This document shows, one piece after another, positions 1 to 54,645 of a stretch of 54,645 nucleotides of DNA (position 1 is its first letter; every line of letters begins with the position of its first letter). The DNA is from a virus. A program made the position numbers and the translations under genes. Below the pieces are notes generated by a model, which saw only the letters and a program-made list of their open reading frames with translations, ran no database searches and was not told the origin of the DNA. The stretch spans positions 1 to 54,645 of IMG/VR virus record IMGVR_UViG_3300048833_000212. One strand, given 5' to 3'.

Positions 1-2
1 GA

Positions 3-158
3 CCGTTCCCCACGCTGAACTGGAAGTCGCTCCGCGATGAGTGCGTGGCCTTCGCTGACTCGCTGCGTCGTGGCGAGATGAAGGCGGATGCCTCCACGCT
101 CGCTGACGATCCCTCGGCTGGCTCCAGCAGTGCGCAGGGTGACGATGCCCGCATGTGA
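3..158 (+). CDS. C-terminal end of the gene that crosses the circular join (phage ssDNA-binding-like protein)
   Basis: This is the last part of the gene that begins at 53789. Bases 1-127 repeat the end of the window, and reading through the join gives one uninterrupted frame ending in TGA at 156-158, for a total of 295 residues. The tail is acidic and small-residue rich (DDPSAGSSSAQGDDARM), as is common for disordered tails of phage single-stranded DNA-binding proteins. The next gene starts inside it at 145, so the two are translationally coupled. See the entry at 53789 for the functional discussion. Confidence 0.85.
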   Translation, partial: PFPTLNWKSLRDECVAFADSLRRGEMKADASTLADDPSAGSSSAQGDDARM

Positions 159-9047: not shown

Positions 9048-9305
9048 ATGAGCAACGACGAAGACATCATGGGCCAGTATGGCGAGGATCGCATCACGGG
9101 CTTCCGTGGGCGCATCACAGGCATTGTGCGCTACATCAGCGGCTGCACCCAGGTGCTGCTGACTCCGAAGGTCGGCACCGATGGGAAGATGCCGGAAGGC
9201 CAGTTCATCGACATCCAGCGCATCAAGGTCGATGAGACGGTGGTGCGCATCATGCTCGACAACGCGCCCACGCCCGGCTTCGATCAGCTGCCGAAGGCGC
9301 GCTGA
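9048..9305 (+). CDS. conserved small phage protein
   Basis: An 85-residue protein. The start at 9048 follows GAGAGAAG. The segment DRITGFRGRITGIVRYISG, with Cys-Thr-Gln and a later GQFIDIQRI, matches a small beta-barrel-like protein common in proteobacterial phages. Its function is unknown to me. It immediately precedes the polymerase gene (shared TGATG). Confidence 0.75.
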   Translation: MSNDEDIMGQYGEDRITGFRGRITGIVRYISGCTQVLLTPKVGTDGKMPEGQFIDIQRIKVDETVVRIMLDNAPTPGFDQLPKAR

Positions 9306-10414
9306 TGTCTGACCTCCGCACCAAGAAGCCATGGGTGTCGCCTCGGCTGCGCACTGGCTATTCCTTCCGGACGGCAGCGGGGATGCTGCCTGAAATCTTC
9401 ACGCGCTTGAAGGAGATTGGGGCGGAGGTCGCGCCAATCACAGACACAGCATCGACCTTCGGCTATGCAAAATGGGCGAAGGGAGCGAAGGATGCCGGGC
9501 TGCGGCCGATCTTCGGCGTGGAACTCTCCGTCACCCCTGCACCGAATGCGAAGAAGCCGGTGAGCAGCGCATGGACGTTCCTCGCCCACGACAGCATCCA
9601 GCCAATCAACAGGCTGGTGAACCTCGCCACATCGCAGTTCCGCTATGAGCCGCTGCTCACCTATGAGCAGGCAATGACAGTGGAGGGAGTGACGAAGATC
9701 GCAGGGCACGCCGCGCTGCTCAGCGAGATGTCGCCAGCACCCGACCTCTTCATGGGCCTTTCGCCTTCGTCGCCACGCGGTCAGGTTGTGGCAGCGATGA
9801 AGGCAGGCTTCCGTCTCATCGCCATCGGTGACAACCGCTTCCCGGCGCCGGGGGATTTGGCGCTGTATGAACTCGCTGCCGGGCGGAACTCCGGCACGCA
9901 GACTTATCCCCAGCACATCCTCAGCGAGGAAGAGTGGCGCGAGGCGATGGCCATGCTGCGGCTCACGGATGATGTGCTGGACGGCGCGCTGGTGGAGGCG
10001 AGCATCGCGCTGGAGAGGTCCACTGCGTCTCTCCGGAAGGCGACGATGGTGAAGCCTGCCCGACCGAAGACGTTGCGCGAGATGGCGGAGGATGGAGCGA
10101 GGCGCCGGGGGATAGACCTCGCTGACCCGGTCTATGCAGCGCGGCTGGAAAGGGAACTCTCCATCATCGAAGCGAAGCGGCTGGAGGATTACTTTTTCCT
10201 GATGGCCGACATCATGCAGTTCAGCCGGGCGCACATGCTGTGTGGACCGGCGCGCGGCTCCGCTGCCGGCTCGCTTCTCTCGTTCCTGCTCGACATCACG
10301 ACCATCGACCCCATCCCTGGTGGCCTACTGTTCGAGCGTTTCCTGGACGTGACGCGTGGTGGCTGGTTCTTCAAGACGGATTGGCTCAAGAATGTGATGG
10401 AGACGGAATCATGA
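9305..10414 (+). CDS. dnaE: DNA polymerase III alpha subunit, N-terminal piece (PHP plus start of palm)
   Basis: A 369-residue protein. Residues about 15-75 form a PHP-type domain (ITDTASTFGYAKWAKGAKDA, then LRPIFGVELS). Its metal ligands are degraded: the usual HxH is RTGYS and the TDH motif is TDT, so it is probably not catalytic. Near the end is the polymerase motif GPARGSAAGSLLSFLLDITT followed by LLFERFLD. The protein stops where the catalytic Asp motif would normally follow; that motif is in the separate gene at 11122. No intein signature is present at the end. Confidence 0.9.
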   Translation: MSDLRTKKPWVSPRLRTGYSFRTAAGMLPEIFTRLKEIGAEVAPITDTASTFGYAKWAKGAKDAGLRPIFGVELSVTPAPNAKKPVSSAWTFLAHDSIQPINRLVNLATSQFRYEPLLTYEQAMTVEGVTKIAGHAALLSEMSPAPDLFMGLSPSSPRGQVVAAMKAGFRLIAIGDNRFPAPGDLALYELAAGRNSGTQTYPQHILSEEEWREAMAMLRLTDDVLDGALVEASIALERSTASLRKATMVKPARPKTLREMAEDGARRRGIDLADPVYAARLERELSIIEAKRLEDYFFLMADIMQFSRAHMLCGPARGSAAGSLLSFLLDITTIDPIPGGLLFERFLDVTRGGWFFKTDWLKNVMETES

Positions 10415-10593
10415 AGGTGAAGGAGTGCCGGACCTGCATCCATCGTCGCGAGGGGATGCTGGCTGTGGACCCATACGAGTGCCGCCGCTATCCTCCAGCA
10501 GTTGTCACATGGGATCATACTCGCAACCAGACGGTATGGCCGAAGGTCAAGCCAAACGACTGGTGCGGCGAATGGAAGGAAGACAAGTCATGA
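10411..10593 (+). CDS. small Cys-rich protein inserted between the polymerase pieces
   Basis: A 60-residue protein with CRTCIHRR, ECRRYPP and WCGEWK, four Cys arranged for one zinc site. This is a widespread small phage protein type. It overlaps the end of the DnaE N-piece gene (ATGA) and the next gene. Confidence 0.7.
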   Translation: MKVKECRTCIHRREGMLAVDPYECRRYPPAVVTWDHTRNQTVWPKVKPNDWCGEWKEDKS

Positions 10594-10811
10594 GCGAGAC
10601 AAAGGCCCATCTACAGAATGTGATGAAGGCACTGGAAGACATCATCCCAGGCTGCGCCATCGTCCTGCTGGTTGCACCCTTCAATGCGCCGGAAGGAGCG
10701 AGGGTGAACTACATCTCCAACGGGAAGCGCGAGACGATGCTGGTGCTGCTGAAGGAGTTTGTCGCACGCGCCGAAGGTCGCGCCCACGACGCTCCGGAGA
10801 GGAAGCAATGA
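10590..10811 (+). CDS. small hypothetical protein inserted between the polymerase pieces
   Basis: A 73-residue protein (MSETKAHLQNVMKALEDI...). It has a hydrophobic strand, GCAIVLLVAPFN, then ARVNYISNGKRETMLVLLKE. It looks like a small alpha/beta protein that occurs in many phages as an unknown. ATGA overlaps are present on both sides. Confidence 0.65.
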   Translation: MSETKAHLQNVMKALEDIIPGCAIVLLVAPFNAPEGARVNYISNGKRETMLVLLKEFVARAEGRAHDAPERKQ

Positions 10812-11125
10812 GCGAGACGAAGAAAAGGCGACAGGTCTTCTGCCGCGTCAAGCACACGAAGGCAGGGACGGACATTGCCCCATGCGATGCACTCTCATCA
10901 GTCCTGATTTATTCGTATGGCGGCGCAGGCGCTAGGCTCGCCACAATGTTCCCATTCACAGATGGCATCCCGCAAGAGGGAAGGAACAAGCGCCTTGTAA
11001 TTGCGCCGACGAAGAAGCAAGGCAAAGGAGTGGTGGCGAACTTCTGCCCGTATTGTGGCGAGCCTCTGACGGAGGGTGGTCGCGGTTTCGTTGCAGAGCA
11101 GGCGAAGCGAAGGTGCAAGGCATGA
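10808..11125 (+). CDS. hypothetical protein with a zinc-ribbon-like C-terminus
   Basis: A 105-residue protein starting MSETKKRRQVFCRV and ending with NFCPYCGEPLTEGGRGF, a CPxCG knuckle. The first five residues repeat those of the preceding gene product. It overlaps the following polymerase gene by four bases. Confidence 0.7.
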   Translation: MSETKKRRQVFCRVKHTKAGTDIAPCDALSSVLIYSYGGAGARLATMFPFTDGIPQEGRNKRLVIAPTKKQGKGVVANFCPYCGEPLTEGGRGFVAEQAKRRCKA

Positions 11126-13200
11126 ACCCCATCGACGCGATCCGCGCCGCACTGATCCCCTCGCGCGTTCAGCAGGTGGGCCAGCAGGCGATTGACGATG
11201 AGATACACGCGCTCATCGCTGCCTTCGACTTCACGAAGTGGATGGTGGGGAGGCTCGATGCCGGAGCGCGCCTGTCCTCCGCTCATGGCTCTTCGCTGCT
11301 CTACTGCGTGGGCCTGGCCGACAATCCCCCGGCGCCGGGGGAGAAGAAGCATATGTGGTTTGACACGACGCTGCCGGACATCGACGTGGACCTGCAGGAC
11401 GATCTTCGCCACCTGACCTTCGCCCACATCGAAGCGACCTATGGGAAGGAGCGGGTGGCGCGCCTCGGAACGGTCGGCACCTTCAAGGCGCGCAGCGCGC
11501 TCCAGGAGGTCGGCATGGCACTCAAAATTCCGAAGTGGGAAACAGATGCTGTGGCTGACCAGATGATCAAGCGATCCTCCGGTGACGCTCGCGCGCAGCT
11601 GACGATCATCGACACGCTGGAGAATATGCCAGCTGGGAAGGACATGCTGAGGGACCATCCCGAAGCGATCATCGTGACGCGCATCGAAGGCCACCCGAAG
11701 AACGCAGGCCAACACGCGGCAGGCGTCGTCATCTCCAATGATGCCATTGATGAGATTGTCGCGGTGGATGCTCGCACAGGTGCTGCTATGTGCGACAAGG
11801 ATGATGCGGAGGGAGCGTATGGCCTCCTGAAGGCGGACATCCTCGGCCTCACGCAGCTGAGTGTCTTCGCGGAGACGCTGGAGCGTGCCGGCCTCCCGCG
11901 CGACTATCTGGACCACGTGCCGTATGACGACAAACTCGCCTTCGTTGTCATCAATGAGCGACGCTACAGCGGTGTGTTCCAGTTTGAGGGAGGCGCGCTG
12001 CAGAGCGTCGCACGCGCTGTGCACATCGACTCATTCAATGACTTCGTCGCGATGACGGCGCTGGCGCGTCCAGGGCCGCTCGCCAGTGGCTCCACCAACG
12101 AGTGGATCAACCGGCGCACAGGGAAGGATCGCGTCACCTATCCGCACGAGATGCTGCAGCCCTACATGGAAGAGACGCTGGGCGTCATCATCTACCAGGA
12201 GCAAATCCTCACCATCGGTCGCGCCGTTGGCGACCTCGACTGGCCTGAGTTGACTGCTCTTCGCAAGGCGATGAGCAAGAGCCTCGGCAAGGAATACTTC
12301 GACAGGTTCGGCAATCCATGGAAGAGCGCCGCGATACGGAAGGGGATGCCGACGCAGGTGGCGGAAGACGTGTGGACTGCGATGTGCGCATATGGATCGT
12401 ATGGCTTCAACAAGTCGCATGCCTACTCGTATGGACTCATCAGCTACTGGTGCGCTCACCTGAAGGCGCGCTATCCGCTGGAGTTCCTGGCGTCCACTCT
12501 CTCGCACACGAGCGACCCAGCGCAGCAGGTGGAACTCCTGCGCGACCTCCTGGCCGAAGGTTATGACTACATCCCCATTGATCCGTCTGTCTCCACCCAC
12601 CGCTGGGAGGTTGCGGAGAGGGAGGGGAAGAAGGTGGTGGTTGGACCTTTGACGGGTGTGCGTGGTATCGGCAGTGTGGCCGTCCAGAAAATCCTGAGCG
12701 CACGCGGCGCCGGGGAGCCGATGCCTGCGCGCTATGCGAAGCTGCTGGAGGCTCCGAAGACTGACATTGACTCGCTGTTCCCGATACGGGATGCGATCCG
12801 GCGCTGCACTCCGGACCTCCGTGAGAAGAACATCCACACGCCTCCCACGATGATCAGCGTGCTGGAGCACATGCCCGACAACAGCGAGGTTCTCATCATT
12901 GGCGTCCTGCTGAAGATCAACCAGCGTGACGAGAATGAGGAAATCAAGATCGCACGGCGCGGTGGGAAGCGCGTGACGGATGGCTTCCTGCTCTCGCTGA
13001 ATTTGAACATCAAGGATGACACCGGCCAGTTCTTCGCGAAGGTTGGCCGCTTCGATTTCGATGTGCTGGGGAAGCGCATCCTGGACCATGGCCGCGCAGG
13101 GAAGGCCATCTGGGCATTGAAGGGAAGGCTCTTCAAGCGCGGCTCCTTCTCAATGCTGACAGTGCGCAACGCGCGCCTCATCGGTGACCTCGATGAGTAG
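11122..13200 (+). CDS. dnaE: DNA polymerase III alpha subunit, C-terminal piece (catalytic palm, fingers, OB region)
   Basis: A 692-residue protein carrying the catalytic residues. PDIDVDLQDD (residues about 90-99) matches the PDxDxD motif, and LLKADILGLTQLSVF holds the third Asp. GTVGTFKARSALQEVG and NKSHAYSYGLISY are family blocks. About 80 N-terminal residues (from MNPIDAIRAAL) have no counterpart in standard DnaE and may form a docking segment for the N-piece. The C-terminus is OB-like. The two pieces plus the DnaQ-type exonuclease would form the replicase. Confidence 0.92.
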   Translation: MNPIDAIRAALIPSRVQQVGQQAIDDEIHALIAAFDFTKWMVGRLDAGARLSSAHGSSLLYCVGLADNPPAPGEKKHMWFDTTLPDIDVDLQDDLRHLTFAHIEATYGKERVARLGTVGTFKARSALQEVGMALKIPKWETDAVADQMIKRSSGDARAQLTIIDTLENMPAGKDMLRDHPEAIIVTRIEGHPKNAGQHAAGVVISNDAIDEIVAVDARTGAAMCDKDDAEGAYGLLKADILGLTQLSVFAETLERAGLPRDYLDHVPYDDKLAFVVINERRYSGVFQFEGGALQSVARAVHIDSFNDFVAMTALARPGPLASGSTNEWINRRTGKDRVTYPHEMLQPYMEETLGVIIYQEQILTIGRAVGDLDWPELTALRKAMSKSLGKEYFDRFGNPWKSAAIRKGMPTQVAEDVWTAMCAYGSYGFNKSHAYSYGLISYWCAHLKARYPLEFLASTLSHTSDPAQQVELLRDLLAEGYDYIPIDPSVSTHRWEVAEREGKKVVVGPLTGVRGIGSVAVQKILSARGAGEPMPARYAKLLEAPKTDIDSLFPIRDAIRRCTPDLREKNIHTPPTMISVLEHMPDNSEVLIIGVLLKINQRDENEEIKIARRGGKRVTDGFLLSLNLNIKDDTGQFFAKVGRFDFDVLGKRILDHGRAGKAIWALKGRLFKRGSFSMLTVRNARLIGDLDE

Positions 13201-43650: not shown

Positions 43651-43869
43651 CTAGGCGCCCACCCTAGGCCGGTCCCGGTCCAGCCTCAGAAGAGCCTCCG
43701 CCCGGCGCCCATCCCCGGCTGCGATCCGGAGCGCGACCTCAGCGAGGTCGCCCAGCCGCACCGCGTGCCGGTTGTCTTCCGGCTTCCGCCCGGCAGCACG
43801 GATGGCGTCATTCATCTCGATGCTGGCCGACACGAGCGCATCGGCCAGAGCGTCGATGTTTGTCGTCAT
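43651..43869 (-). CDS. small hypothetical protein
   Basis: A 72-residue protein (MTTNIDALADALVSASIEMN...) overlapping the helicase stop by ATGA. Mostly helical; the C-terminal third is Arg-rich (GRRAEALLRLDRDRPR). It is the last gene of the minus-strand block. Confidence 0.65.
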   Translation of the reverse strand: MTTNIDALADALVSASIEMNDAIRAAGRKPEDNRHAVRLGDLAEVALRIAAGDGRRAEALLRLDRDRPRVGA

Positions 43870-45302
43870 GACTCCCAGTCTTCATCTTCCAGGATGCGGA
43901 GGATGTCCGGCATCGCCATCGCAGCGATGGTCGCTCCATCGACATAGGACTGGAGGGTGCGCGCATCGAAGGATCGTGCGGCCACGAGGTCCGTGTAATT
44001 GACGACACCAACAGTGCCGAGACGGTGGATGCGATCCTCGCTCTGCCAGCGCGCGATGGCGCCAGGCACGTGCGAATAGTAGATGGCGTCATTGCAGCCA
44101 CCCTGCAGGTTCAGCCCGGCTCCACCCGCCTTCGGGTTGGAGACGAAGAACCTGATGCTTGGGTCGGTGAGGAAGCGAGCCTTCGCCACCTCACGGTTCT
44201 TGTCATTCGTCTCGCCATCATAGCGCACAGCCTGCTCGCCAAGCACGTCCATCAGCAGGGAGATGTCGTCACGGAAGCGTGCCCATATGGCGATCTTCCC
44301 CTCTGTGGCTTCGATCTTCTCCATCAGCGCCGCCATCCGTGGGTTGCGCAGCGGATCATCGAACAAGCGGTGTATCTTCCCCGCCTCATCCTTCACGAAG
44401 CCGCTGGCAACTTGCGAGATGCGGGTGAAGGCGACAGCAGCATTGGCAGCACTCACGACCTCGCCACTGCGGATGGCCGATGCCATCCCCTTCTTCAGCG
44501 TCTTGATCATTGCCAGCTGCTCGGCTGTTAGGTCGAAGTGCCACTTGCCTCGCATCTTCGCTTCGATGCCGGCCTGGTCCTTCGTGAAGTGCGCGATGTA
44601 TGGCGCCGTCTTCTCCTTCCACCGCGCGACATTCCGATGGCCGATGATTTCCCGGTTCTCAAATCCGCCCATGATGCAATACTCGCGGCGGAAGTGCGTG
44701 ACGTATTGGATGCCGATGATGGTGGGGTCCAGGAATAGGAACTGCGCCCACTCTTCCTCCAGGCTCTTCGCGAGCGGAGTGCCAGTCATGATCACGCGAT
44801 GGCTGACCATCGCTCCCAGCCGCCTCGCCTCCTTCGCGCGGCGGCTGCGTGGGTTCTTGATCGTCTGGCTCTCATCGATGATGATGAGCACGCGACCTTT
44901 GTGGAGGTCGATGAACTGCTTGGCGATGTTGAAGCCATTCGCGCTGGCGCTGATCGCGTCGATGTTCATGGAGAGAAACCGGAGCGAGTTCCCCGGCGCC
45001 GCGCTCTCAGGGAGTTTCTTCACAGGCCATTCGATCCCCACGAAGGGGAGAGGCGCGTGGACGGGCAGCTGCTCGCGTATCCACTGGCGATGGACTCCCT
45101 TCAGCGAGAGGATGAGCACGCCAGTGATGACTCCCTCTGCCCAGCGGATGAAGGAGAGGTCAATGCCCACCTTCGTCTTCCCCAGGCCTTGTTCAAAGAA
45201 GACTGCGAAGTGCCGTTGCTTCCGCGCCTTCTCAAGCGCGTCCACCTGCCAGAATTTTCCCGGCACCTTCTCCACGAATGGGATCGCATCTTCAATCATC
45301 AT
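43866..45302 (-). CDS. SNF2-family (superfamily 2) helicase / ATPase
   Basis: A 478-residue protein. Motif I EQGLGKTKV, motif II IIIDESQTIKN, motif III MTGTPLAKS, motif V SNPKAGGAGLNLQG and motif VI RWQSEDRIHRLG are all present in order. This is the compact two-RecA-domain form found in phages, with no accessory domains. It may remodel DNA-protein complexes or help replication or packaging. Its start is one of clustered GTG/ATG codons at 45305-45299. Confidence 0.93.
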   Translation of the reverse strand: MMIEDAIPFVEKVPGKFWQVDALEKARKQRHFAVFFEQGLGKTKVGIDLSFIRWAEGVITGVLILSLKGVHRQWIREQLPVHAPLPFVGIEWPVKKLPESAAPGNSLRFLSMNIDAISASANGFNIAKQFIDLHKGRVLIIIDESQTIKNPRSRRAKEARRLGAMVSHRVIMTGTPLAKSLEEEWAQFLFLDPTIIGIQYVTHFRREYCIMGGFENREIIGHRNVARWKEKTAPYIAHFTKDQAGIEAKMRGKWHFDLTAEQLAMIKTLKKGMASAIRSGEVVSAANAAVAFTRISQVASGFVKDEAGKIHRLFDDPLRNPRMAALMEKIEATEGKIAIWARFRDDISLLMDVLGEQAVRYDGETNDKNREVAKARFLTDPSIRFFVSNPKAGGAGLNLQGGCNDAIYYSHVPGAIARWQSEDRIHRLGTVGVVNYTDLVAARSFDARTLQSYVDGATIAAMAMPDILRILEDEDWES

Positions 45303-45353
45303 CACTCTCGCTTGGCAGGTGGGGAGAGGATCGCCGCAACGGTCCTCACCTCA

Positions 45354-45377
45354 CCTGCCTGGATCGCTCCAGGCAGG
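45354..45377 (-). other. strong intergenic hairpin
   Basis: Perfect 10-bp stem CCTGCCTGGA / TCCAGGCAGG; on the minus-strand RNA the loop is GCGA, a stable GNRA-type tetraloop. It lies between two minus-strand genes where further upstream a ribozyme would sit, so it may act as a 3'-end stabiliser or processing site. Confidence 0.6.
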
Positions 45378-45396
45378 CTGGCCGTGAAGGCGAAGG

Positions 45397-45696
45397 TCAC
45401 TTCACCTTCACGAACTCGTGGGCGACATCCCAGTTCAAATCCTGGGACCGGCCACCCTTCTTGATGTAGTCCTCATACACGATCCCCGGATTGCGCATGA
45501 TGATCGCGTGCGACTTGAAGCCGGTGGAGTTGGGACGGCGCGGGTTGGCCTCGCACGTGCTGGTCAGCGTCTTCCCCGCATGGGCGGAGGGACGCCCGGT
45601 GCCGGTGGCCTTCGCCTTCGGTGCCGCCTTCGGTGCCGCCTTCGGTGCCGCCTTCGCCTTCGGCGCCGTCTTCTTTGTCGTGGTGACTTTCGCCAT
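45397..45696 (-). CDS. basic protein, paralog 1 of the NPRR...GGR...WD domain family
   Basis: A 99-residue protein. The N-terminus is Lys/Ala/Pro repeats (APKAAPKAAPKAK). The C-terminal 45 residues carry NPRRPNSTGFKSHAIIMRN followed by GIVYEDYIKKGGRSQDLNWD. The same domain ends the gene at 45757 and makes up most of the gene at 51936. The basic tail suggests nucleic-acid binding. The RBS AGGAGAG is clear. Function is unknown. Confidence 0.75.
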   Translation of the reverse strand: MAKVTTTKKTAPKAKAAPKAAPKAAPKAKATGTGRPSAHAGKTLTSTCEANPRRPNSTGFKSHAIIMRNPGIVYEDYIKKGGRSQDLNWDVAHEFVKVK

Positions 45697-45716
45697 TGTA
45701 GTCTCTCCTGCTGTCT

Positions 45717-45741
45717 GGTCCCTGGCGGGATGCCAGGGACC
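45717..45741 (-). other. strong intergenic hairpin
   Basis: Perfect 10-bp stem GGTCCCTGGC / GCCAGGGACC with a 5-base loop, between the two paralog genes on the minus strand. No T tract is present. Confidence 0.6.
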
Positions 45742-45756
45742 GGGTGGTGGCCTGCG

Positions 45757-46383
45757 TCAGGCCTTCTTCGGCTCGCTCACCAGAACGTGCCCGAACTTGA
45801 TGTCCCAGCGGAGGTCCACATTGCGACCTCCCGCCGCGATGAAGTCTTCATACTTGATGCCCGGCTTCTGGAGGATGATCTCCATGCTGTTGAATCCGTG
45901 CGACGGATTGCGCCGGTGGTTCTTGTCCTTCACCGCCTTCAGCGTCATGCCGGTGAACTCCGCGACCTTCCCCCGCTTCGCCCCGCCAGCCGCCTTCAGT
46001 GCTGCCTTCTCCGCAGCCTTCTCCGCCTTCACCCGCGCGCGCTCCGCCTTCGCAGTGGTGGCCGCCACCGTCGCCTCCGCGACCTTCGCTGCGATGGAGC
46101 CGGTGACCTTCGTGGTCTTCTCCTTCGGCTGCGTGTTGGCCTCCAGATCGGCCGCAGCCTTCTCCACCGCCTTCGCCGGCACCGCCGCCTTCAGCGTCTC
46201 GGTGATCTTCGCGATCCGCTTCATGGCGGTGGCACGGTCGGTGAACTTGTTCACTTCCGGCTCACCCAGCATCTTCGCCATCGCGTTGTAGAGGTTCACG
46301 ATGCCCTTCATGTTCGCGGTGGCGGTCAAGCCTTCCGCTTCCACGATGCAGTCACCCGCTTCCTGCGCATCAATCTTCGCCAT
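45757..46383 (-). CDS. Ala/Lys-rich protein, paralog 2 of the NPRR...GGR...WD domain family
   Basis: A 208-residue protein. Start ATG 46383 follows GGAGCGAG. Residues about 1-75 are helical (GIVNLYNAMAKMLGEPEVNK), about 85-145 are Ala/Lys/Glu-rich helix, and the C-terminal 50 residues are the shared domain (RRNPSHGFNSMEIILQKPGI, YEDFIAAGGRNVDLRWDI). It looks like a chromatin-type basic protein with a conserved head. Confidence 0.75.
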   Translation of the reverse strand: MAKIDAQEAGDCIVEAEGLTATANMKGIVNLYNAMAKMLGEPEVNKFTDRATAMKRIAKITETLKAAVPAKAVEKAAADLEANTQPKEKTTKVTGSIAAKVAEATVAATTAKAERARVKAEKAAEKAALKAAGGAKRGKVAEFTGMTLKAVKDKNHRRNPSHGFNSMEIILQKPGIKYEDFIAAGGRNVDLRWDIKFGHVLVSEPKKA

Positions 46384-46462
46384 GTCACTCGCTCCATGAT
46401 GGCGCCGTCCCTCGGCGCCGTGGTGATGATAACTGAGCAGCACATGCTGCCCAGGCAGTTGA

Positions 46463-47416
46463 CTACTCGGCCAGCTTCAGCAGAAGCGTCTGGGCCATCG
46501 CCTTCTTCGTGCGCAGATCACCGACCCACGACCGTGCCAGCCGCGACTCAGCGGAGGTCGATGCGATGTGATCGCTCCAGAACGTGATACCGTTCATCAC
46601 GCCCCACGCATCCCCCGGAGTTGCGCCCGGTCCATTCACGATGGCGCCGATCAGCTGCTGAAGAACCTTCGGCTGATTCTCCGGCTGCATGATCACTGCC
46701 GCCAGCTCATTGTCCTCGATGATGTCCGGGAAGAAGGTCGGCAGCAGCACCTTGTTGACCGCATCCTCCAGCCCCAGCTTCGTCTTCGCCAGCAGCCGCG
46801 CATTCGCCTCATGCTGGCCGAAGGCTTCGTTGGCCAGCGCCAGCTGGAGCCGCGCCGCATTGAAGTCGAAAGCCTTCATGTGGTTCTGGCGATACTCCAC
46901 CGAGCCTTCGTTCATCGCGGCCATCATGGTGTTCATGCACACCACACGCACGCTCGTGGTGGAGAGCAGCGAAGCCTTCCCCACGATGTGGGGCGAAGTG
47001 AACAGGACGTATCCCTTCACCCTGTCGCCCTTCCGCACTTCAAACTCCCGGTTGAGGCGCATCAGCCCCCAGATGATCTCACCACCACGCAGTGAGCCGG
47101 CAGTCTCCAGCGCCGCGCCTCCCGCCTTCGCATACTCCCCCATGAACTCCAGCACGTCAGTGTTCTGGATCGGCGCCCACGCTTCGCCAGTGATGGTCAT
47201 CATCTTCTGGTCGCTGTCGCGCACGAGCGCATACTTGTTGTTGGCACGATAGACCTCGCCATCCGTGCCCTGGAAAAACATCGGCTGCTTCGTCACCATC
47301 CAGTCGATGCCAGCCGCCTTCGCCATCTCGGCAGGCGTGACCAGACCTTCGACCTTCGTGCCCTGGCCATGCCACGGCGTCTCACCGGCATATGCCATCG
47401 TCTCAACTTCAGAACT
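46463..47416 (-). CDS. DUF932 phage/plasmid-like protein
   Basis: A 317-residue protein. The N-terminal ETMAYAGETPWHGQGTKV and the central VRVVCMNTMMAAM with a following RQNH match the DUF932 / TIGR03299 family. This protein is common on plasmids and phages and has no settled function. ATG 47416 has AAGGAA 8 bases upstream. About 95 bases of leader separate it from the ribozyme at 47510. Confidence 0.9.
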   Translation of the reverse strand, partial: SSEVETMAYAGETPWHGQGTKVEGLVTPAEMAKAAGIDWMVTKQPMFFQGTDGEVYRANNKYALVRDSDQKMMTITGEAWAPIQNTDVLEFMGEYAKAGGAALETAGSLRGGEIIWGLMRLNREFEVRKGDRVKGYVLFTSPHIVGKASLLSTTSVRVVCMNTMMAAMNEGSVEYRQNHMKAFDFNAARLQLALANEAFGQHEANARLLAKTKLGLEDAVNKVLLPTFFPDIIEDNELAAVIMQPENQPKVLQQLIGAIVNGPGATPGDAWGVMNGITFWSDHIASTSAESRLARSWVGDLRTKKAMAQTLLLKLAE

Positions 47417-47509
47417 CATCACCGTCATTCCTTCTTCATCGACCGTGCCTGTTCCTCCGGAAAAAGGGAAGCCCCAAAATCCAGTCGGCACAAGTGCTGC
47501 ATTTGAGCT

Positions 47510-47579
47510 GGCTCATCAGCGGAGGATGCTCATGTCTCCGGACCTCCCCCGGCGCCGCGATGCCAGGGAGGGTTTCGCC
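47510..47579 (-). ncRNA. type II hammerhead ribozyme, copy A (slightly degenerate)
   Basis: On the minus strand: stem II GGC, core GAAA (47576-47573), stem III CCTCCC/GGGAGG closed by a CGGCGCCG-containing loop, GTC at 47543-47541, stem I CGGAG/CTCCG, core CTGATGA (47519-47513), stem II GCC. One unpaired C follows GAAA, so stem III has a one-base bulge; activity may be lower. It begins at the stop codon of the upstream gene (TAAGGC). Predicted cleavage lies between 47541 and 47540. Confidence 0.75.
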
Positions 47580-49118: not shown

Positions 49119-49185
49119 TGGCTCATCAGGTGGGGTCATCCCCACGACCTTCGCGGCGCCGGGGGAGCGCCGCTAGGTTTCGCCA
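49119..49185 (-). ncRNA. type II hammerhead ribozyme, copy B
   Basis: Stem II TGGC/GCCA (4 bp), GAAA at 49181-49178, stem III CCT/AGG plus GCGGCG/CGCCGC with a CGGCGCCG in the 3' arm, GTC at 49148-49146, stem I GTGGGG/CCCCAC with a 4-base loop ATGA, CTGATGA at 49129-49123. The upstream stop codon TGA directly abuts stem II. Predicted cleavage lies between 49146 and 49145. Confidence 0.9.
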
Positions 49186-49356
49186 TCAGTGTGTCTTCCC
49201 TGTCACCATCTGCCCGATGATGAAGCGCGTCATGTCGTTTATGAACATGATGTGGTCTGCGCTCTTCGGCTCTTCGCTGAGGATCGCTCGCATGTGGGCA
49301 CGATATGCGCGCGCCTCCTTCGCGGCTGCGTCGCGCGCAGTCTTGTCCTCCAGCAT
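49186..49356 (-). CDS. small hypothetical protein
   Basis: A 56-residue protein (MLEDKTARDAAAKEARAYRA...). AAGGAGG lies 7 bases before ATG 49356 and the start overlaps the upstream stop. Helical; unknown. Confidence 0.68.
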   Translation of the reverse strand: MLEDKTARDAAAKEARAYRAHMRAILSEEPKSADHIMFINDMTRFIIGQMVTGKTH

Positions 49357-50031: not shown

Positions 50032-50099
50032 GGCTCATCAGGTGGGGTCCATCCCCACGACGCTCCCCGGAACCTCGCGGCGCCAGGGAGCGTTTCGCC
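50032..50099 (-). ncRNA. type II hammerhead ribozyme, copy C
   Basis: Stem II GGC/GCC with an extra T-G pair, GAAA at 50096-50093, stem III CGCTCCC/GGGAGCG (7 bp) with a loop containing TGGCGCCG, GTC at 50061-50059, stem I GTGGGG/CCCCAC with loop ATGGA, CTGATGA at 50041-50035. It starts immediately after the stop TGA of the upstream gene. Predicted cleavage lies between 50059 and 50058. Confidence 0.93.
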
Positions 50100-51039: not shown

Positions 51040-51107
51040 GGCTCATCAGGTGGGGTCCATCCCCACGACGCTCCCCGGAACCTCGCGGCGCCGGGGAGCG
51101 TTTCGCC
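51040..51107 (-). ncRNA. type II hammerhead ribozyme, copy D (best formed)
   Basis: Stem II GGC/GCC, GAAA at 51104-51101, stem III CGCTCCCCGG/CCGGGGAGCG (10 perfect bp) with a CGGCGCCG at the loop, GTC at 51069-51067, stem I GTGGGG/CCCCAC with loop ATGGA, CTGATGA at 51049-51043. The upstream DUF2786 gene ends at 51110. Predicted cleavage lies between 51067 and 51066. Confidence 0.95.
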
Positions 51108-51109
51108 AT

Positions 51110-51850
51110 TCACTTGAGCAGGCCTGCGGTCTTCGTCGCAGCAGGCTTCTTGTCGGCGCCAACCGACATCGTCAGCTGCGCCTTCGCGCCGTGCTCCCGC
51201 CCGGCTTCGCTCGCTGCCGAGTAGCGGTTCACCGTCACAGCCTTGCGCGGCTTCGCCAGCTTCACGTTGTTGTCCACCCAGGCCTGCGCAGCCGACATCT
51301 TCGCCTCATAGAGGTTGACGACCACGAGCGCACGCCCATCGCTCTCAGCGGTGCCGCCTTCCTTCGCCTGCTTGATGAGTTCCTTGCAGCGCCAGTAGAT
51401 CGTCTTGGCTGCCGCATTCGTGAAGTCGGTGCGCGCGCGAGCCGCAGTCAGCTGCATGTTCGCCTTCGCAGCGATCAGCGCGCCAGCCCACACGCCGCTC
51501 AAGATCATCTTCGCGACCGAGTGTGCGACCTCCACATCTGCGCGCGTCCCCACGAAGGTCACGATCAGCGTCTGCGACGGGGAGCGGGTCCAGTAGAATT
51601 TGCAGAAGTAAAGTTCAGCGATGGCGGAGCAAATCCAGCGCGACCACGGGCTGGTGTTGAACTTGTAGCCAAAGGTCGCAGCGTCCACCGTCTCTTCCAC
51701 CGCATCGTCGCCTGCGATGTCAGCCTGGCTGAGGTTGTGCTCCAAGAGCATCGCGTGCGCCTTCGCCAGCGCGCTCTGGCGCTCCGCTTCGCTGCTGTTG
51801 TTGTTGGCGAGCGCCAGCAGCTTGCGAATGCGGTCAATCGTCTTTTCCAT
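51110..51850 (-). CDS. DUF2786-domain protein
   Basis: A 246-residue protein. The N-terminal RIRKLLALANNNSSEAERQS followed by LAKAHAMLLEHNLS is the DUF2786 unit. The middle (WSRWICSAIAELYFCKFYWT, VTFVGTRADVEVAHSVAKMI) matches the companion domain found in phage and plasmid members. Biochemical role unknown. It forms its own cistron between ribozymes E and D. Confidence 0.88.
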   Translation of the reverse strand: MEKTIDRIRKLLALANNNSSEAERQSALAKAHAMLLEHNLSQADIAGDDAVEETVDAATFGYKFNTSPWSRWICSAIAELYFCKFYWTRSPSQTLIVTFVGTRADVEVAHSVAKMILSGVWAGALIAAKANMQLTAARARTDFTNAAAKTIYWRCKELIKQAKEGGTAESDGRALVVVNLYEAKMSAAQAWVDNNVKLAKPRKAVTVNRYSAASEAGREHGAKAQLTMSVGADKKPAATKTAGLLK

Positions 51851-51868: not shown

Positions 51869-51933
51869 GGCTCATCAGGTGGGGTCCATCCCCACGACAC
51901 ATCCCTGCTCCTGGGAGCAGGGAGTGTTTCGCC
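51869..51933 (-). ncRNA. type II hammerhead ribozyme, copy E
   Basis: Stem II GGC/GCC, GAAA at 51930-51927, stem III CAC/GTG then CCCTGCTC/GAGCAGGG with loop CCAG or similar and a small internal bulge, GTC at 51898-51896, stem I GTGGGG/CCCCAC with loop ATGGA, CTGATGA at 51878-51872. No CGGCGCCG is present here, showing that the palindrome is not part of the ribozyme. Predicted cleavage lies between 51896 and 51895. Confidence 0.92.
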
Positions 51934-51935
51934 AT

Positions 51936-52160
51936 TCACTTCCGCGCGCGGCGCGGCTTCGTCGTGGTCACGTTCCCGTGGGCGATGTCCCAGCGGACAT
52001 CGACCGGGCGGCCACCCTTCGCCACAAAGTCTTCGTAGGTGATGCCAGGGTTGCGGAGGATGATCTTCATGGAGTGGAAGCCGCAGCTGTCCTTCCGGCG
52101 CGGGTTGGTCGCGACGGTCGGAAAGAGCGGCTTGGAAGCAATGGAAGAGATGCGGGCCAT
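51936..52160 (-). CDS. paralog 3 of the NPRR...GGR...WD domain family
   Basis: A 74-residue protein consisting almost only of the shared domain (NPRRKDSCGFHSMKIILRNP, GITYEDFVAKGGRPVDVRWD) plus a basic tail (TTKPRRARK). It is the shortest member of the family in this genome and defines the domain borders. It stands alone between ribozymes F and E. Function is unknown. Confidence 0.78.
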   Translation of the reverse strand: MARISSIASKPLFPTVATNPRRKDSCGFHSMKIILRNPGITYEDFVAKGGRPVDVRWDIAHGNVTTTKPRRARK

Positions 52161-52179: not shown

Positions 52180-52232
52180 GGCTCATCAGGTGGGGTCCAT
52201 CCCCACGACGCTCCAATGCGGAGCGTTTCGCC
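52180..52232 (-). ncRNA. type II hammerhead ribozyme, copy F (minimal form)
   Basis: Stem II GGC/GCC, GAAA at 52229-52226, stem III CGCTCC/GGAGCG with a 5-base loop GCATT, GTC at 52209-52207, stem I GTGGGG/CCCCAC with loop ATGGA, CTGATGA at 52189-52183. With 53 bases it is the smallest copy and a near-minimal hammerhead. Predicted cleavage lies between 52207 and 52206. Confidence 0.95.
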
Positions 52233-52234
52233 AT

Positions 52235-52381
52235 TCACTTCGCAGCGCGCCTCTCAGCAGCGCGCGCTTCCTTCAGCTGCTCACGCAGCTTCGCGACCCG
52301 GCGCAGCAGCGCCTCTGTCGGATAGGAAGCGGCGTGGATGCGTGCGGTTAAGAGGCGCGCTGCAATCGTCTTCGCGTTCAT
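52235..52381 (-). CDS. small basic helical protein
   Basis: A 48-residue protein from ATG 52381 to TGA at 52237-52235. It begins MNAKTIAARLLTARIHAA and continues as an Arg/Lys/Ala helix (LRRVAKLREQLKEARAAERR). It is preceded by AAAGGAAC and lies between ribozymes G and F. It is the first gene of the minus-strand block. Confidence 0.65.
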   Translation of the reverse strand: MNAKTIAARLLTARIHAASYPTEALLRRVAKLREQLKEARAAERRAAK

Positions 52382-52396: not shown

Positions 52397-52459
52397 GACT
52401 CATCAGGCGAGGTCTATCCCCGCGACCTTCGCGGCGCCGAGGCGCCGCTAGGTTTCGTC
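52397..52459 (-). ncRNA. type II hammerhead ribozyme, copy G (first in the transcript)
   Basis: Stem II is GAC/GTC, a compensating change relative to GGC/GCC in the other six copies. GAAA at 52456-52453, stem III CCT/AGG plus GCGGCGC/GCGCCGC with loop CTCG, GTC at 52426-52424, stem I GCGGGG/CCTCGC (one G-T pair) with loop ATAGA, CTGATGA at 52406-52400. No gene lies upstream, so cleavage would trim the 5' leader of the whole transcript. Predicted cleavage lies between 52424 and 52423. Confidence 0.9.
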
Positions 52460-53339: not shown

Positions 53340-53548
53340 GATCATTCCGGCTCCCAAAGGCATGTCGGGCTGGAGCCGGATCATTCTTGCAGCGGGCTGA
53401 CCGACCTTCCGCCAGAGGATCATTCCTCCAGCGTCCCAGGTTCCCTTCTGGCAGAGGATCATTCTTGCAGCGGGCTGACCGACCTTCCGCCAAAGGATCA
53501 TTCCTCCAGCGGCTGGACCTTCGACCTTTTGCCAGAGGATCATTCTGC
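53340..53548. repeat. iteron-like 39-bp tandem repeats (six units)
   Basis: GATCATTC begins at 53340, 53379, 53418, 53457, 53496 and 53538, a 39-bp period with a last step of 42. Units 2 and 4 are nearly identical (GATCATTCTTGCAGCGGGCT, then GACCGACCTTCCGCC). Units 3 and 5 share GATCATTCCTCCAGCG. Because 39 is divisible by three, false reading frames with 13-residue repeats appear on both strands. Location next to an AT-rich segment between divergent operons fits an origin, centromere-like site or operator array. Confidence 0.75.
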
Positions 53549-53788
53549 TGGTAGTGTGAACTGGCTCCCCACCGCGACGATCCCCCGGCGCCGCGATGGC
53601 GATGCTGGCAGTCACCGGCTCTTCGATGATGGGCGGAGACTTTACTGAACATGTCATGAATAGTTGAAGAACTGTTTCACCAGCACCAGGAAAACCAGCT
53701 TTCCTTCCACGAAGAGTTCCCCGATTATTCCGCCTGCCGCAAAAGTGGTGTGGATAACCCGCACACAAGTCGGCAGGAGACTTATGCT

Positions 53789-54645
53789 GTGAAGAATAAA
53801 GACGCCAAGACGAAGGAAGCGGAAGTGCCGACTGCTTCCGATGTGGTCACCGAGACCACGATGGACAAGCTGCCGGTCCCGCTGGACCCGCCCGATACAT
53901 CGGATGACTTCTCCGAACATGCCGGCGCAGGCATGGAGAATGTCGGCGCTGCCGACCTCCTGGTGCCGCGCCTCACGATCCTCCAGCAGCTGTCGCCCCA
54001 GCTGAATGACCGCAAGGCGGAGTTCATCGAAGGCGCGAAGCAGGGGATGCTCTGCGACGTGGGCGTGGGCGAGGTCTGGACGGCCATCCACTTCGTGCCC
54101 TGCCACTATGAGAAGGTCTGGCTGGAGTGGGCGCCGCGCGCTTCCGGGAAGGGACTGGTGGCCGTCCACAACTCCCCGGCCATCCTCGACAAGTGCCGGC
54201 TGAATGAGAAGAACCAGCCGATGAATGGGCCGAACCTCGTGAGCGAGACGGCGCAGGTGTATGGCATCAACCTCTCGGCTGGTGGCCGTCGCTCCTTCAT
54301 CTCCTTCGCGAGCACCCAGCTGAAGAGCGCGCGCAAGTGGATGATGCTCGCCACCGGGGAGAAGCTGATGAGCGCGAAGACCGGGAAGGAGTTCACGCCT
54401 CCCCTGTTCTATCGCAGCTACATCATCGACAGCACGATGACCAGCAATGCGGAGGGTGACTGGTTCCTCTATCGCGTGGCGCGGGCGGAGGCTCTGCCTG
54501 CTCTCGCGGCGCCGGGTGGACCGTTCCCCACGCTGAACTGGAAGTCGCTCCGCGATGAGTGCGTGGCCTTCGCTGACTCGCTGCGTCGTGGCGAGATGAA
54601 GGCGGATGCCTCCACGCTCGCTGACGATCCCTCGGCTGGCTCCAG
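53789..54645 (+). CDS. phage ssDNA-binding / annealing-like protein (continues across the join to 158)
   Basis: A 295-residue protein in the circular genome, starting with GTG 53789 behind CAGGAG; the ATG at 53784 is closed by a stop at once. A disordered acidic N-terminus is followed by ADLLVPRLTILQQLSPQLND, EGAKQGMLCDVGVGEVWTAI and FVPCHYEKVWLEWAPR. This is an OB-like pattern seen in phage Gp2.5-type single-stranded DNA-binding proteins. A later block, FASTQLKSARKWMMLA, is also typical. The acidic C-terminus supports the idea. It is the first gene of the replication operon, right after the iterons. Confidence 0.72.
   Translation, partial: MKNKDAKTKEAEVPTASDVVTETTMDKLPVPLDPPDTSDDFSEHAGAGMENVGAADLLVPRLTILQQLSPQLNDRKAEFIEGAKQGMLCDVGVGEVWTAIHFVPCHYEKVWLEWAPRASGKGLVAVHNSPAILDKCRLNEKNQPMNGPNLVSETAQVYGINLSAGGRRSFISFASTQLKSARKWMMLATGEKLMSAKTGKEFTPPLFYRSYIIDSTMTSNAEGDWFLYRVARAEALPALAAPGGPFPTLNWKSLRDECVAFADSLRRGEMKADASTLADDPSAGS
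54519..54645. repeat. 127-bp terminal direct repeat (circular join)
   Basis: Identical to bases 1-127. The length equals a common assembler k-mer, and an intact gene reads through the join, so this marks a circular assembly. The sequence alone does not show a physical terminal repeat. Confidence 0.95.

Follow-up and report, generated by a model that had tools for sequence, protein, structure and literature searches.

The window analysed here, the whole 54,645-nucleotide stretch of IMG/VR virus record IMGVR_UViG_3300048833_000212, carries on its minus strand an operon of mostly small proteins without assigned function, besides a DUF2786/DUF7168 protein, a phrog_1221 family protein and a helicase. 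Seven predicted hammerhead ribozymes were located in this operon, with minus-strand starts at 52459, 52232, 51933, 51107, 50099, 49184 and 47579. Copies are named below by these starts, except that the leader copy at 52459 is called copy G. The features, in 5' to 3' order of the minus strand, are as follows; L126 is the related IMG/VR contig IMGVR_UViG_3300037462_000199.

52397..52459, minus strand: copy G, type II hammerhead in the operon leader; core CUGAUGA / GAAA, triplet GUC; predicted cut 52424/52423
52235..52381, minus strand: gene 1, 48 aa; open reading frame after the leader ribozyme, AGGA upstream
52180..52232, minus strand: type II hammerhead, 2 nt past the gene 1 stop; above the RF02276 gathering score; predicted cut 52207/52206
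51936..52160, minus strand: gene 2, 74 aa; without Pfam or PHROG match; L126 ortholog also ribozyme-flanked
51869..51933, minus strand: type II hammerhead, 2 nt past the gene 2 stop; predicted cut 51896/51895
51110..51850, minus strand: gene 3, 246 aa, DUF2786/DUF7168 (phrog_421); L126 ortholog 66% identical and also ribozyme-flanked
51040..51107, minus strand: type II hammerhead, 2 nt past the gene 3 stop; predicted cut 51067/51066
50032..50099, minus strand: type II hammerhead, 1 nt past the gene 6 stop; predicted cut 50059/50058
49120..49184, minus strand: type II hammerhead, 1 nt past the stop at 49186; loop I AUGA; predicted cut 49146/49145
47510..47579, minus strand: type II hammerhead of another lineage, abutting a TAA stop; stem I CGGAG/CTCCG; predicted cut 47541/47540
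43866..47491, minus strand: downstream part of the operon without hammerheads; phrog_1221 family protein, small genes and helicase (phrog_62)

The two ends of the window (1-127 and 54519-54645) are identical over 127 nt, and the contig therefore probably represents a whole genome, circular or permuted, of 54,518 bp. Upstream of the ribozyme operon, the intergenic region 53378-53553 holds four direct repeats at a spacing of ~39 nt (GGATCATTC...), which may be iterons or operators. At 9305-13200, DNA polymerase III alpha is split inside its NTPase domain, with a 128-aa open reading frame between the halves (9305-10414 covers profile positions 2-98, and 11053-13200 positions 99-260); an inserted element is a possible cause.

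Detection and class of the seven copies

A descriptor scan of the window returned seven matches, all of them on the coding strand of the operon and none on the opposite strand. All seven contain the conserved core CUGANGA plus GAAA, with A15.1-U16.1 and a cleavable H17 (triplet GUC), and the whole core is invariant among them. Stem II is 3–4 bp long and open, stem I has 5–6 bp, and stem III is paired at its base in 7/7 copies. On this architecture the seven elements are classed as type II hammerhead ribozymes, and the array as one of the clustered phage hammerheads. The region is G+C rich and hairpins occur elsewhere in the operon, as would be expected if the elements were inverted repeats arisen by chance, terminators or hairpins of some other non-catalytic kind. 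Such an origin is nevertheless extremely unlikely given the invariant core, the absence of matches both on reversed sequences and in 100 whole-window dinucleotide shuffles, the lack of a U-tract past stem III and the covariation of the pairs described below.

With the Rfam model RF02276 (Hammerhead_II), only the copy at 52233-52175 passed the gathering score (37.4 versus 37 bits). Three further copies scored 28.8–32.5 bits, below gathering, and three, copy G among them, were unreported; a long stem III lowers the score. Because the covariance model passes one copy and misses copy G, the sequence-only reading from which this analysis started had caught more of the array. No other Rfam ribozymes were found in the window up to E = 5.

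Read on the minus strand, copy G is GAC-GAA-ACCTAGCGGCGCCTCGGCGCCGCGAAGGT-C-GCGGGGATAGACCTCGC-CTGATGA-GTC, with AUAGA as its stem I loop. Re-reading of the sequence reproduced, exact in bases and coordinates, the stem II of GAC/GTC and the stem I of GCGGGG/CCTCGC that had been described for it. In stem I, U-A is replaced by C-G at pair 2, where both sides change, and G-C by G-U at pair 4, where one side does. The assertion that the other copies have GTGGGG/CCCCAC in stem I does not extend to the 47579 copy, with its CGGAG/CTCCG. Stem III had been said to differ in almost every copy and always to pair; the former is too broad, as copies G and 49184 have nearly the same stem III and 51107 differs from 50099 by a single base, while the latter is correct at the base of the stem in all copies but not throughout, an internal loop or bulge being present in four (52459, 49184, 51933 and 47579).

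Placement of the ribozymes at gene junctions

In all six internal copies, stem II lies 0–2 nt past the upstream stop codon. A Shine-Dalgarno-like AGGA and an ATG follow the leader copy and five of the six internal copies; the downstream start is less clear for the 47579 copy. Several junctions of the operon have no ribozyme, and two long gaps at 45697-45756 and 45306-45396, when searched for degenerate hammerheads, contained plain hairpins only. Consensus scanning of the operon found no convincing internal promoters.

The fit to the stop codon is seen more widely. Among the 221 viral copies in the matches listed, a stop codon ends −4 to +1 nt from stem II in 45%, versus 2.4% at random positions, and a stop together with a Shine-Dalgarno-preceded start flanks the ribozyme in 65%, versus 10%. 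The distance from stop to stem II is sharply peaked in these copies, falling at −6 to 0 nt in 129/221, and no comparable stop-codon pattern was found on the opposite strand.

With so short a gap, a terminating ribosome could cover the 5' strand of stem II and the GAAA, in which case cutting would occur only when upstream translation is low, and the array would report or tune translation rather than merely cut constitutively. Both the 0–2-nt gap at every internal copy and the sharp peak across viruses speak for such gating. Compact phage genomes would give short gaps anyway, however, and the leader copy has no gene upstream of it; we regard gating as unlikely.

Comparison with a related contig

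L126 contains orthologs of gene 2 and gene 3 (63% and 66% identity) in the same order as the window: hammerhead, gene 2, hammerhead, gene 3, hammerhead. It has ~10 copies with a longer stem I and, in nearly all of them, a clear pseudoknot of 5–6 bp between loop I and the 3' tail. By comparison, the array of seven in the window mostly lacks a strong pseudoknot: the 47579 copy has one of 5 bp (UGAGC:GCUCA), and the contact reaches at best ~3 bp in the other six. The stem I sequences of L126 are unlike those of the window, yet they are paired, and covariation links loop I with the 3' tail (UUGGCA:UGCCAA, ACGGCA:UGCCGA). The L126 leader copy likewise has a GAC/GTC stem II; that of copy G is therefore probably inherited, reflecting one old event. 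At 7411 of L126, a remnant, AAGGAGAAACGGAGGAGG, stands directly past a stop codon; it corresponds to the 5' part of a ribozyme from which the rest is deleted, and it now serves as the Shine-Dalgarno of the next gene.

Covariation and selection on the fold

When trimmed, the seven window copies give five distinct rows, in which 92.9% of cells pair. Six pairs changed on both sides, versus 3.0 in shuffles, with nine such cells versus 3.4. This covariation is modest and suggestive, and it falls short of the proof of selection that the sequence-only reading had seen in it, because the rows are paralogs, the stem III hairpins move as whole cassettes, and GAC/GTC is shared with L126. Addition of L126 and a further contig, L052, gave 13 distinct rows, with two-sided changes in 10 of 14 pairs and in 45 cells, the latter versus 14.6.

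For an unbiased sample, viral contigs were searched for GGCGAAAC-N-GTC-N-CTGATGAGCC, a pattern that requires pairing neither in stem I nor in the inner part of stem III. Among the 163 distinct viral matches in those listed, stem I nonetheless formed at least four flush pairs in 93% (3.7% when shuffled), and stem III at least two further pairs in 90% (19% when shuffled). A tree-aware test was then applied to 162 viral hammerheads among the matches listed, using a custom implementation rather than R-scape, with the null simulated on a tree of the same sequences. Exactly the 10 tested pairs of stems I and III were significant, 10/10, and no others. As the search pattern fixed stem II at GGC/GCC, covariation in stem II is less cleanly tested by this sample; when stem II was not required in the search, most copies among the matches listed paired there, as GGC/GCC, GCC/GGC, GAC/GTC, GTC/GAC or TGC/GCA.

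Cores were nearly invariant, with 207 intact cores versus three true one-base variants, all U4C, among the viral loci in the matches listed (the remaining six rows of the variant list were alternative readings of intact copies and were not counted). With the L126 remnant, these three variants are what a search for broken stems and mutated cores in relatives brought to light, and they show that hammerhead decay occurs but is rare. Comparison with relatives thus strongly supports selection for the hammerhead fold, as had been proposed, and leaves chance repeats unlikely; the word "proves" was too strong for the window by itself.

Arrays in other phages and bacteria

Hammerhead arrays of 7–11 copies are present in several phage contigs among the viral matches listed. 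The cultivated Streptomyces phage R4 has eight copies, three canonical and five with one extra nucleotide, and Hank144 has eight Rfam matches. In these R4-like phages (R4, Hank144 and Janus), the arrays are co-oriented with small genes, as in the window. Their genes are unrelated to those of the window, however, many of their copies have the one extra nucleotide after A9, and each junction has its own inherited hairpin, in contrast to the homogenised array of the window. At least 35 viral copies have one extra nucleotide between A9 and stem II (U in 30, A in 5); they occur in L137, L010, L014, L021, L033, L078, L088, L120 and others, are common in R4-like phages, and often have GCC/GGC as stem II. 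An extra core nucleotide is also familiar from a viroid hammerhead (CChMVd).

Among the matches listed, clustered copies were also found in bacterial genomes, for example of Sphingomonas, Sphingopyxis, Saccharothrix and Streptomyces. In phage isolates with a distant DUF2786 homolog (Erebus, BcepGomr, S0112, vB_Ade_ART, Me-ZS1 and Manatee Spring myovirus), the stretches scanned contained no hammerheads, and a relaxed scan gave weak chance matches only. Searches of viral contigs returned neither terminase relatives nor the exact stem I pattern of the window. An OCR-like antirestriction gene lies at 5150-5680 of L137, inside a hammerhead-bearing region of phage R4; ardA was noted beside hammerheads by Perreault et al. 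(PMC3088659).

The ribozymes could also be RNA cassettes, mobile or selfish, that multiply by self-copying inside phage operons and are tolerated in intergenic gaps while benefiting the phage little. Five of the seven window copies share a near-identical stem I hairpin, and L126 has a different one. In arrays of at least three copies among the matches listed, a hairpin and its closest relative share a contig in 32/112 cases, versus 5.2 by chance. Local homogenisation of this kind is also expected of a spreading element and counts against a role in message processing. R4-like phages, on the other hand, keep a hammerhead at the same junction with the hairpins swapped, in up to 14 genomes among the matches listed; the stems still pair after divergence in the tree-aware test; and a spreading element would have no need to preserve so exact a fit between stop and stem. 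On balance, selfish spread is quite improbable.

Proposed processing of the operon message

We consider it rather likely that the seven ribozymes cut the minus-strand transcript of the operon during its synthesis, giving single-gene or few-gene mRNAs with protected ends. Of the two ends made by hammerhead cleavage, one carries a 2',3'-cyclic phosphate and the other a 5'-OH; bacterial mRNA decay is slowed by terminal hairpins and by a 5'-OH. Each RNA would fold and cleave itself behind the C of GUC. The stem III hairpin, bearing a 2',3'-cyclic phosphate, would then form the 3' end of the upstream mRNA. The downstream mRNA would open immediately with the stem I hairpin, which would carry the 5'-OH, and would continue into its Shine-Dalgarno and start codon. 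The polycistronic message would in this way become pieces whose ends resist exonucleases and 5'-end-dependent decay, so that mRNA decay and translation could differ from gene to gene within one transcript; the leader copy would likewise trim the 5' end of the transcript.

Processing is favoured by the complete core and three stems, the covariation, the single orientation and the location in the leader and between stop and start codons, and also by the published precedent of clustered phage hammerheads that cleave (PMC3088659). Loss of the contact between loop I and the tail strongly slows type II hammerheads (PMC3088659); as this contact spans no more than 3 bp in six of the seven copies, cleavage at the magnesium levels of a cell may be slow. 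Folding gave no support to exposure of the Shine-Dalgarno by cutting: its predicted accessibility was unchanged or lower after the cut, and at the two upstream copies it was predicted to be less free.

Because hammerhead copies flank single genes, pairs of them might instead release segments that are ligated into circular RNAs, the ends left by hammerheads being joinable by RNA ligases. The subset of window proteins scanned included no RNA ligase or RtcB, however, and no circular products were found by the authors of PMC3088659, which makes this outcome very improbable.

Relation to known systems and implications

Type II hammerheads, the pseudoknot they form and their clusters flanking phage genes were described by Perreault et al. 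(2011), who observed cleavage of tandem hammerhead transcripts in vitro and, in the case of A. tumefaciens, also in E. coli (PMC3088659). The window array belongs to this described group: its copies have the same permuted architecture as those of that study and of RF02276, with stem II open, and the same core; its co-oriented clusters likewise flank single genes or short blocks; and the pseudoknot follows the same principle in the 47579 copy and in L126. It differs in having seven copies in one operon, a leader copy with a distinct stem II and, for the most part, no strong pseudoknot.

What the sequence comparisons appear to add is the tight stop-codon fit across viruses, the 8-copy arrays in cultivated R4-like phages and the extra-nucleotide core variant found there. 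No description of the stop-codon fit was found in a term search of Perreault et al. (PMC3088659), and a literature search that reached few subscription papers returned nothing on hammerheads in R4 or actinobacteriophages.

A 2017 review treated the biological role of hammerheads in phages as an open question (PMC6155905). One doubtful extension of the present data is that dense arrays are a general design of phage gene expression, in which a ribozyme abuts the stop codon at nearly every non-overlapping junction and termination gates cutting. If this were true, termination-gated cutting would set the life and level of each mRNA piece. As to processing of the operon message into protected pieces, the array is dense, ordered and kept at orthologous junctions, and Streptomyces phage R4, which grows on the laboratory host S. 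coelicolor, has a comparable array of eight copies; for these reasons the mRNA-processing hypothesis is directly testable.
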